The notes beneath the pieces are model-generated. The model saw only the letters and a program-made list of their open reading frames with translations, was not told the DNA's origin and searched no databases. Below, one piece after another: positions 14,116 to 16,655 of a DNA stretch of 63,543 nt. The stretch covers positions 1 to 63,543 of the forward strand of contig CADDZJ010000013.1 of the NCBI GenBank assembly GCA_902812415.1, read 5' to 3'. The DNA comes from Acidobacteriota bacterium (lineage in GTDB: Bacteria > Acidobacteriota > Terriglobia > UBA7540). The position numbers and the translations under genes were made by a program. Position 1 is the first letter of the stretch, and each line of letters opens with the position of its first letter.

Positions 14116-15477
14116 ATGGACGAAAAACAAACAGCAGCGACGGAAATTCTCAGGAAATTGCGTCGGGCTGGCTTTCAAGCCTATTTTGTGGGCGGCTGCG
14201 TGCGAGATCTGGTCATGGGCGTGAAGCCTAAGGATTATGATGTTGCGACGGACGCGCATCCGGATGAGGTGCTGGAGATCTTCCCTGACGGTCTCGCGGT
14301 GGGGGCGCAGTTCGGCGTGATCCTGGTGCCGCGCAAGGAAGGTCAAGTTGAGGTTGCGACATTCCGCAGCGACGGAATCTATTCAGATGGCCGACATCCC
14401 AATGAAGTGTGCTATGCCAGGACCGCCGAAGAAGATGTCCGAAGGCGGGACTTTACCATCAATGGCCTGCTCTTAGATCCCATCGAGGAAAAGGTCATTG
14501 ACTACGTGGGCGGGCAGGAAGACATCCGCGCGCGTCGCATCCGCACGATTGGCCCTCCCCTGGAGCGCTTCAGCGAAGATCGCCTGCGAATGCTGCGCGC
14601 AGTGCGTTTCGCCGCGCGTCTTGGATTTGCGCTGGACCCCGCAATTCTCCCCGCTATTCGTGAGCTTCGGACGCTTATCGAGACGGTCAGCCATGAACGG
14701 GTGCGAGACGAGATTCTAAAAATTCTTACTGAGGGCGCTGCGCGAAAGGGAATGGAATTGTTGGACGAGACGGGTTTACTCGAAATCATTCTGCCGGAAG
14801 TAAAGGCCATGCAGGGCGTCGAGCAGCCTCCGCAATTTCATCCTGAAGGCGACGTTTGGACGCATACTCTGATGATGCTCGAAAACCTGGAGCAGCCGAG
14901 CGCGACTCTCGCTCTCGGAGTTTTGCTTCATGACGTGGGGAAGCCCCCTACCTTTTCAATCCGCGATCGCATCCGATTTGATCAGCACCCCGAGGTGGGA
15001 GCGAAAATGGCGGCGCAGATTTGCAACCGCCTGCGCTTGTCGCTGCGTCAGACAGAGCGCGTCGTCGCTCTGGTGGAAAATCACCTTCGTTTCAAGGATC
15101 TGCCGCAGATGCGTCGCTCGACGCAATTACGCTTCCTGAGGATGGAAGGCTTTGAGGAGCATTTGGAACTGCATCGTCTAGATTGCCTGGCGAGCCACGG
15201 AAATCTCAGCAATTACGAGCTTGCCCGTAAACTCCTGGATGAGACGCCCAAGGAAAACATCAAGCCCCTACCTCTGCTGCGGGGAGACGATCTCATCGCA
15301 CAGGGCTATGCGCCGGGGCCTCAATTTAAGGAAATCCTGCGGGTTATCGAGGATGCGCAACTGGAGGGCGCTATTCACACTCATGAAGACGCGCTACACC
15401 TGCTTCATGAGAAGTTCCCTCAATCGACTGATCACTTCATCCCTTCAGGTAGTGCGAGGTCGCCAAAAAATAAATGA
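14116..15477 (+). CDS. cca: CCA tRNA nucleotidyltransferase / poly(A) polymerase family with HD domain
   Basis: 453 aa from the ATG at 14116 (MDEKQTAATEILRKLRRAG), chosen because GGGA lies ~6 bp upstream and the family usually starts just before this helix; in-frame TTG 14077 and ATG 14104 are alternatives. The class II nucleotidyltransferase head has YFVGGCVRDLVMG and DYDVATDA (catalytic aspartates), then RRRDFTINGLLLDP and the RFSEDRLRMLRAVRFAARLGF motif. An HD domain follows (LGVLLHDVGKP, FDQHPEVGA). It adds or repairs the 3'-CCA of tRNAs; the tRNA-Ser in this window already encodes CCA, so repair may be its main task there. Family members can instead be poly(A) polymerases; the two are hard to separate by sequence. 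Confidence 0.88.
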   Translation: MDEKQTAATEILRKLRRAGFQAYFVGGCVRDLVMGVKPKDYDVATDAHPDEVLEIFPDGLAVGAQFGVILVPRKEGQVEVATFRSDGIYSDGRHPNEVCYARTAEEDVRRRDFTINGLLLDPIEEKVIDYVGGQEDIRARRIRTIGPPLERFSEDRLRMLRAVRFAARLGFALDPAILPAIRELRTLIETVSHERVRDEILKILTEGAARKGMELLDETGLLEIILPEVKAMQGVEQPPQFHPEGDVWTHTLMMLENLEQPSATLALGVLLHDVGKPPTFSIRDRIRFDQHPEVGAKMAAQICNRLRLSLRQTERVVALVENHLRFKDLPQMRRSTQLRFLRMEGFEEHLELHRLDCLASHGNLSNYELARKLLDETPKENIKPLPLLRGDDLIAQGYAPGPQFKEILRVIEDAQLEGAIHTHEDALHLLHEKFPQSTDHFIPSGSARSPKNK

Positions 15478-15580
15478 AGACACCCACGCCACCCATTGCT
15501 GCGATGAAGGCGCCTATCTTATATAGCAGCACCTTTCGATCCTCAGCGGTGGGCTTCTCCTCATTGATCATCTGGAACAT
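15437..15580 (-). CDS. Small single-pass membrane protein (47 aa)
   Basis: The minus strand encodes a protein starting MFQMINEEKPTAEDRKVL and ending in a TAA-free reading closed by TGA at 15437-15439. A near-consensus Shine-Dalgarno (AGGAGGG) stands 4-5 bp before the ATG at 15578-15580. The first ~16 residues are charged, then KIGAFIAAMGGVGVFIYFLA forms one membrane helix and SHYLKG follows. An upstream in-frame ATG (15608-15610) is less well placed. Its last ~40 bp are antisense to the 3' end of cca, so the two genes converge with overlap. I do not recognise the family; no function is proposed. The strong ribosome-binding site and clean helix make it a convincing gene. Confidence 0.75.
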   Translation of the reverse strand: MFQMINEEKPTAEDRKVLLYKIGAFIAAMGGVGVFIYFLATSHYLKG

Positions 15581-16037
15581 AGTACCCTCCTGCTGACCGA
15601 GCGAACTCATGGGGCCCGGAGGAGCACTGATGATTCAATTCTCGAAGTTGGCCTCCATGTTCGCTAACCAGGAGAATGACTCGTGAACCCAACCCGGCGC
15701 GTCTTGGGAGTGAACTTAGGCGCATGAGCCGCTGGCGTCGGGACTACCCTGTTGATGACTTCAATGTAACTCTTCCGTTTGAAAAGTCAAGCCCCTTTTC
15801 CGCCTTAAAATCAGGTGCTCCCCTTTTCAGCTTCTTGTCTTTAATCCTGTACAAGCGGGCGCCGGAAATCATAAAATCGTTTCAGTGCGCAGTAAGCTGC
15901 GGGCTCGCGTGGAGGGGACAGCTCTTAAGTCAAGGCCGTGCTCAAGAACTCCCCACCTCAATTTTCGGCAGGAGCTGGACGGGCTCAAAGCGAGGCTGGA
16001 GCCGAGCCAGGCCTGCTTCAGATGACAGAGAATAACC
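15581..16037. other. Gene-free stretch
   Basis: About 457 bp between the small membrane protein and the zinc-ribbon gene. An open frame on the plus strand (from 15676) has no ribosome-binding site and a composition unlike a protein. No clear promoter, repeat or RNA seen. Confidence 0.4.
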
Positions 16038-16655
16038 ATGGAAGAAAGCAAAATTAACGCTGAGGATGCTCTCATCCCCAACAGAAACACCTCATCCCCT
16101 ACCCCTGCCCTCCCTACCGAGCCCTTCCCATGCCCGAACTGCGGTCAAATGCTAGCGGCCACCTGCAAGGTCTGTGTGATTTGCCACGAGCCGGTCGATT
16201 TTTCCAAGGTGCGAAGAACGGCCACCCCATGGACGCCTGCGCCCAGGCCTCAAGAGGAGGCTTCCATCAAAGAGGTGAAATCTCAATTTTCCTGGCCCAT
16301 CTTTTTTGTAGTTGTGGCGGTTTACCTTGCAATTGCCGTCACCGCGCGAGCCTACCTGAACCCCATTCACTACGAGGCGCTTCTCAGTGCGCTCCTGGTG
16401 ATCTCTTCCGTCTGGGTGTTTTACGACGCGCACTCCAAACGCTTGCCGCATCCGGTGCGCTGGGGAGTGAGCGCGTTGCTGCTTTGGATCGTTGTATTTC
16501 CCTGGTATCTTTCTCGCCGCAGAAACCCACAGTCTCCCTGCCCGCTGATGGAAGCTGAGGGCAGCGTCTTTATCCGTGCGCTCATCTGGGTTTTGCTGAT
16601 CTTCTTCGTGCTTAGCCTGATTGCAGCAGTGGTTGTGCGCAAGCCGCCGCATTGA
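16038..16655 (+). CDS. Zinc-ribbon multi-pass membrane protein, unknown function
   Basis: 205 aa starting MEESKINAEDALIPNRN at an ATG with AGAGAA ~6 bp upstream. Residues ~31-52 hold a cysteine cluster (CPNCGQ, then CKVCVICHEP), which looks like a small zinc ribbon. After a proline-rich linker come four likely membrane segments: WPIFFVVVAVYLAIAVTAR, EALLSALLVISSVWVFY, VSALLLWIVVFPWYL and ALIWVLLIFFVLSLIAAVVV. Zinc-ribbon-plus-TM proteins of this type are common and mostly uncharacterised. It faces the convergent TPR gene and appears monocistronic. Confidence 0.75.
   Translation: MEESKINAEDALIPNRNTSSPTPALPTEPFPCPNCGQMLAATCKVCVICHEPVDFSKVRRTATPWTPAPRPQEEASIKEVKSQFSWPIFFVVVAVYLAIAVTARAYLNPIHYEALLSALLVISSVWVFYDAHSKRLPHPVRWGVSALLLWIVVFPWYLSRRRNPQSPCPLMEAEGSVFIRALIWVLLIFFVLSLIAAVVVRKPPH

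Follow-up and report, generated by a model that had tools for sequence, protein, structure and literature searches.

A conserved small membrane protein gene beside cca in Acidobacteriota, with a predicted promoter and a long conserved leader

Introduction

At the 3′ end of cca in an acidobacterial genome, a 47-codon reading frame on the opposite strand converges on the tRNA nucleotidyltransferase gene and overlaps its last codons. Does this frame encode a protein, does it serve to regulate cca in antisense, or is it there by chance? We addressed the question in the window (the whole 63,543-nt stretch of DNA analysed) and in genomes of the same family, class and phylum. The initial annotation of the window had proposed a real small membrane protein adjoining cca, based on a near-perfect Shine-Dalgarno sequence, a charged N-terminus and one membrane helix, and had added that the overlap could give antisense regulation.

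Results

A conserved reading frame under purifying selection

The two converging genes and the ribosome-binding site are laid out as follows.

14116..15477, plus strand: cca-type tRNA nucleotidyltransferase with PolyA_pol, RNA-binding and HD domains, converging on the small gene (assumed start codon)
15437..15580, minus strand: gene for a 47-aa single-pass membrane protein (ATG at 15580, TGA at 15439-15437)
15585..15591, minus strand: Shine-Dalgarno sequence AGGAGGG, 4 nt 5′ of the ATG

The frame on the minus strand runs from 15580 to 15437 and its 47 codons specify the product MFQMINEEKPTAEDRKVLLYKIGAFIAAMGGVGVFIYFLATSHYLKG. A protein search of 61 genomes returned clear relatives, and a profile (A1) built from 27 of these was used to search genomes of the family, class and phylum. 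All 29 orthologous proteins are 44-47 aa long, and start, stop and ribosome-binding site are common to them. The start codon is ATG in 27 and GTG in two; GGAGG lies 5′ of it in 28 of the 29 and GGGGG in the remaining one. An in-frame ATG at 15610 would extend the window protein to 57 aa; conservation starts only at the methionine encoded at 15580.

Substitution patterns point the same way. Synonymous differences (pS 0.23-0.83) exceed non-synonymous ones (pN 0.01-0.29) in all 27 within-genus pairs, and the differences summed over these pairs fall 140/105/497 on codon positions 1, 2 and 3. In GC-rich DNA, frames as long as this one abound, which is what a chance ORF would have in its favour; the start, stop and Shine-Dalgarno sequence conserved in 29 orthologues, together with the excess of pS over pN, refute that explanation and leave it a negligible probability. 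Because the orthologues share length, start and Shine-Dalgarno sequence and show pS above pN, comparison of the sequences settles that the 47-codon frame is a real protein-coding gene under purifying selection. The lack of conservation of frame or ribosome-binding site in relatives, which would have spoken against a gene, is not seen.

A small protein with one membrane segment

Each of the 29 proteins has one hydrophobic segment, which in the window protein spans residues 22-40 (Kyte-Doolittle mean 2.1), and all 29 thus fall by sequence among the small membrane proteins (<50 aa, one membrane segment). The N-terminal part is charged, as first described, with 3-5 K/R and 3-6 D/E. It is followed by a hydrophobic stretch that has small residues (GG) at its centre and a pair of aromatic residues, and then by a short tail. 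In the 27-member profile M1 and F2 are invariant and M4, R15, K21 and F25 nearly so. Positively charged residues number 3-5 before the hydrophobic segment and 0-1 after it, which by the positive-inside rule suggests an N-in/C-out topology. An AlphaFold2 model consists of one helix from residue 12 to 46 (mean pLDDT 85.7). No catalytic residues are evident.

Searches of Pfam, NCBIfam, PHROGs and the PDB with the family gave no credible relative; weak matches were dropped, as they differ from member to member. One of these weak likenesses is to an archaeal-type SecE model, which two of 27 members match (best E 0.0069); together with the tail-anchored layout, it might suggest a divergent SecE or another translocon subunit. 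However, the score of 13.8 bits lies far under the curated cut-off of 106, the genome encodes its own SecE elsewhere (G000:C29, E 4e-17), and 11 of 39 family genomes lack the small gene, including several that are 95-98% complete. We rejected this assignment, to which we give next to no weight.

Distribution among genomes

Carriers of the small gene make up 28 of the 39 genomes of the window's family (12 of 18 among the well-assembled ones) and 29 of the 399 class genomes. The additional carrier, G038, belongs to another family, in whose order one of two genomes has the gene. A sample of 297 genomes across the phylum gave a convincing match in a single genome, the window's own. Nine further genomes gave weak matches (E 6e-4 to 9e-3), which were dismissed as chance since they are short stretches within frames of 166-780 aa. 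At the cut-offs used the gene is single-copy in each genome. Named records carrying it, examined for 15 loci, are all metagenome assemblies of Acidobacteriota, one labelled Acidobacteria subdivision 13 and others Terriglobia. A search of viral contigs confirmed no relative, and one of plasmids returned just two partial VirB10 matches (E 0.3-0.4), neither credible. We found no mention of the gene in the open-access papers searched, and we regard its product as a previously unnamed small membrane protein of acidobacteria.

The relationship with cca

Among the 29 carriers, 23 have the small gene and cca converging tail to tail. Stop codons abut in nine of these 23 copies, are separated by 1 bp in three and by 5-18 bp in nine, and overlap in two, by 41 bp in the window and by 11 bp in another genome. 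In the window the cca frame ends at 15477, and between 15437 and 15477 it extends beyond the stop of its relatives; this C-terminal tail of about 15 residues, absent from the sister species, creates the 41-bp overlap. Six genomes, G014 and five of genus g3, carry the gene away from cca, and five of these six copies keep the same promoter.

These arrangements bear on the suggestion that the frame, or its transcript, is there mainly to control cca in antisense by way of the 3′ overlap. In its favour are the tail-to-tail position in 23 of 29 genomes, with 0-1 bp between stops in 12, and the failure to find a terminator-like site in a search of 15300-16000; overlapping read-through transcripts of the two genes are possible. 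Against it, an overlap with cca is seen in only two of 23 copies, it is the protein sequence that selection preserves, and a promoter and leader of its own are conserved upstream of the gene. Because it lives away from cca in six of 29 genomes, five times with the same promoter, the antisense idea is unsupported; we rejected it as a main function and consider it highly improbable. We see in cca a stable neighbour of the small gene; it is probably not what the small protein acts on, its own product being expected to be soluble.

Turning to the genomes that lack the gene, a cca match is present in nine of the 11 non-carriers in the family, and at these nine cca ends no frame similar to the small gene was seen. 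In four non-carriers a Gfo/Idh-like gene (named by eye) lies 3′ of cca in the same orientation; in G023 a weak 202-aa frame stands between the two. This gene also borders the small gene, on the side away from cca, in the carriers G013, G026, G028 and G016. This common flank in carriers and non-carriers implies that the small gene was lost from, or inserted into, one identical site beside cca. On the cca tree six changes in its presence are needed. Horizontal transfer of the cca block to the second family was considered and rejected: the cca of G038 falls outside the window's family in the tree, albeit on a long branch.

No conserved neighbour of the small gene other than cca was seen. Several local features were recorded. 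In part of g3 (L141, L142, L143 and L145) the gene has in its vicinity an AI-2E-type permease frame, a large carboxypeptidase-regulatory/TonB-like protein, or both, and in L068, L070, L071, L074, L076 and L083 cca lies downstream of prfA-, prmC- and dinB-like frames on the same strand (all named by eye). A tRNA gene (L012, 1947-2020) is close to the small-gene/cca pair in G009. The window also encodes, at 16038-16655 on the plus strand, a 205-aa protein whose N-terminus resembles a zinc ribbon and which contains several hydrophobic stretches; its Pfam matches are all sub-threshold, and it is in no recurring neighbour cluster. A second gene with a PolyA_pol domain is present in the genome besides cca (G000:C153:950-1384).

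A predicted promoter and a conserved leader

Upstream of the small gene, the following elements were recognised.

15763..15790, minus strand: sigma70-type promoter, TTGACT (15790-15785), 16-nt spacer, TACATT (15768-15763)
15581..15756, minus strand: 5′ leader of about 175 nt, conserved in sequence and with a folding signal at the alignment level; transcription start near 15756, as judged from the position of the −10 element
15693..15742, minus strand: leader helix 15742-15735/15700-15693, with one A-C mismatch in the window
15670..15676, minus strand: anti-Shine-Dalgarno element UUCUCCU, predicted partner of the Shine-Dalgarno sequence at 15591-15585

Of the 29 loci, 28 have the motif TTGAC[AT] upstream of the small gene, the exception being G014; that of G029 was found on a flanking contig. 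A scan for complete sigma70-type promoters gave a site on the sense strand in 25 of 29 loci, against about 2.7 expected from shuffling, always with a spacer of 16 nt and at −180 to −216. The promoter lies about 170-215 nt 5′ of the start codon, and the small gene is predicted to form its own transcription unit.

On the antisense strand, a search for the sigma70-type pattern from −240 to the stop codon gave no site in any of the 29 loci. This matters for a comparison with type I toxins, among them Hok and TisB. A toxin-like hydrophobic peptide of this kind would come with a long folded leader, an occluded ribosome-binding site and an antitoxin RNA, and the present gene resembles these systems in the size and single membrane helix of its product and in its long, possibly inhibitory leader with Shine-Dalgarno pairing. 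It differs from them, however, in having no antisense promoter of the sigma70 type (the reason for which we rejected the assignment), in being single-copy, in its charged, conserved N-terminus under strong purifying selection, and in lacking a credible match in plasmids or viral contigs. We therefore judge a toxin very unlikely.

The stretch between promoter and Shine-Dalgarno sequence is strongly conserved. Its mismatch is below the synonymous difference of the small gene in every one of 25 pairs, and below that of cca in all 15 pairs compared, on scales that are not strictly the same. Does this conservation reflect an RNA fold that governs translation? A different account keeps the same protein and attributes the upstream conservation to promoter or DNA-level regulation or to mRNA stability, with leader folds that do not switch translation. 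It is favoured by folding energies of single leaders, which are ordinary (z about 0); likewise, the local energy of the Shine-Dalgarno hairpin showed no excess over shuffles across 13 genera, and pairing of the Shine-Dalgarno sequence is high in shuffled leaders too.

Alignments gave a different picture. Relative to column shuffles, z was −3.2 in g1, −4.1 in g3, −4.3 in g3+g10+g17, −3.9 in g7, −2.2 in g4 and −2.0 in g11+g14; the signal was absent in g11 alone (+0.20) and in g4+g9+g18 (+0.37), two results that again suit a DNA-level explanation. When four group alignments (z −3.65, −5.59, −2.23 and −3.02) were set against 48 control windows from cca (mean −0.07, sd 1.13, lowest −2.88), three folded beyond all controls and the one at −2.23 lay within the control range. 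The sense strand folded more strongly than the antisense strand in all four, which argues against conservation at the DNA level alone.

Compensatory changes argue in the same direction. In the window's own genus, the helix 15742-15735/15700-15693 shows one change from C-G to U-A in the sister species G002, and the anti-Shine-Dalgarno element is kept in three of four members and largely deleted in the fourth, again G002. In an alignment of nine leaders from g3+g10+g17 (A3), for which a structure with a 5′ closing helix and a Shine-Dalgarno hairpin was set by hand, 93.1% of cells are paired, and the covariation score exceeds that of all 500 shuffles, a control that, like the other shuffles used here, retains shared ancestry. 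Four pairs changed on both sides, a number matched by 14 of the 500 shuffles, and compensatory changes occur in both the closing helix and the hairpin. The Shine-Dalgarno sequence is paired in nine of nine leaders and 100% of helix cells, but this helix hardly varies, and shuffled leaders pair the sequence as well.

A covariance model of A3 (R1) gave ten strong matches (E <= 4e-17) in 39 genomes, all of them leaders of the small gene: nine are the model's own sequences, and the tenth (contig C36 of G029) comes from sequence flanking this gene, which a contig end interrupts. All other matches are either pieces or antisense copies of these leaders or are weak, the best of the weak ones being in G026 (E 0.003), and among the strong matches over these genomes none precedes a different gene. 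For most other genera the leader is not strongly recognised, so that one common fold is unsupported, a point in favour of the DNA-level account; leaders of 11 loci had no match in Rfam. By sequence comparison, a conserved, gene-specific leader of about 130-180 nt thus precedes the small gene. That its conservation is entirely a matter of DNA-level regulation or mRNA stability seems to us possible, if doubtful; we infer instead that the leader may switch translation.

Discussion

Taken as a whole, our explanation is that of a bitopic inner-membrane protein expressed from its own transcription unit, docking on a partner and gated in its translation by the leader, for which we estimate a probability of roughly 0.55. 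Its parts differ in strength: a small bitopic protein with a regulatory or accessory role in the membrane is the most likely reading, and control of its translation through the leader is perhaps part of it. The locus would then be an autonomous unit of promoter, Shine-Dalgarno-hiding leader and small bitopic protein. The leader hairpin would hold the Shine-Dalgarno sequence, and translation would rise only once the fold opens. Two surfaces of the protein, the conserved one at the N-terminus (MFQMI[ND]E...DRK...K) and the one formed by small residues (GG) on the helix, may dock on a larger membrane protein, which the small protein would tune or stabilise.

Docking of this kind is suggested by analogy. 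Small membrane proteins of such size are described as acting on a membrane partner (PMC12719787); MgrB, AcrZ, MgtS, CydX and YohP belong to this class of proteins of <50 aa with one membrane helix and few residues outside it. No sequence relation to these five was found in Pfam, NCBIfam, PHROGs or the PDB, and the acidobacterial gene is set apart from them by its own promoter and long conserved leader. Weighing against a docking role, no homologue of known function was found and no recurring neighbour besides cca offers itself as partner.

RNA thermometers and translational riboswitches are leaders that occlude the ribosome-binding site. The leader described here resembles them in the predicted hairpin in which the Shine-Dalgarno sequence pairs with an upstream anti-Shine-Dalgarno element, but differs in being gene-specific, in having no Rfam match for the 11 loci and in that a fold shared across all genera is unsupported. 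We tentatively suggest that, in one acidobacterial family, small membrane regulators of a new protein family could be combined with a new gene-specific translational control RNA of about 130-180 nt in a single compact cassette, whose two parts move jointly when the gene is relocated.

The window also illustrates that when a small gene runs into a housekeeping gene from the opposite strand, the overlap need not serve regulation and can have arisen late, by accident, in a single lineage. Overall, these results add a well-conserved small-protein family to a poorly studied phylum, on evidence strong enough for annotation, and tie the small protein to a conserved leader that appears to be folded.
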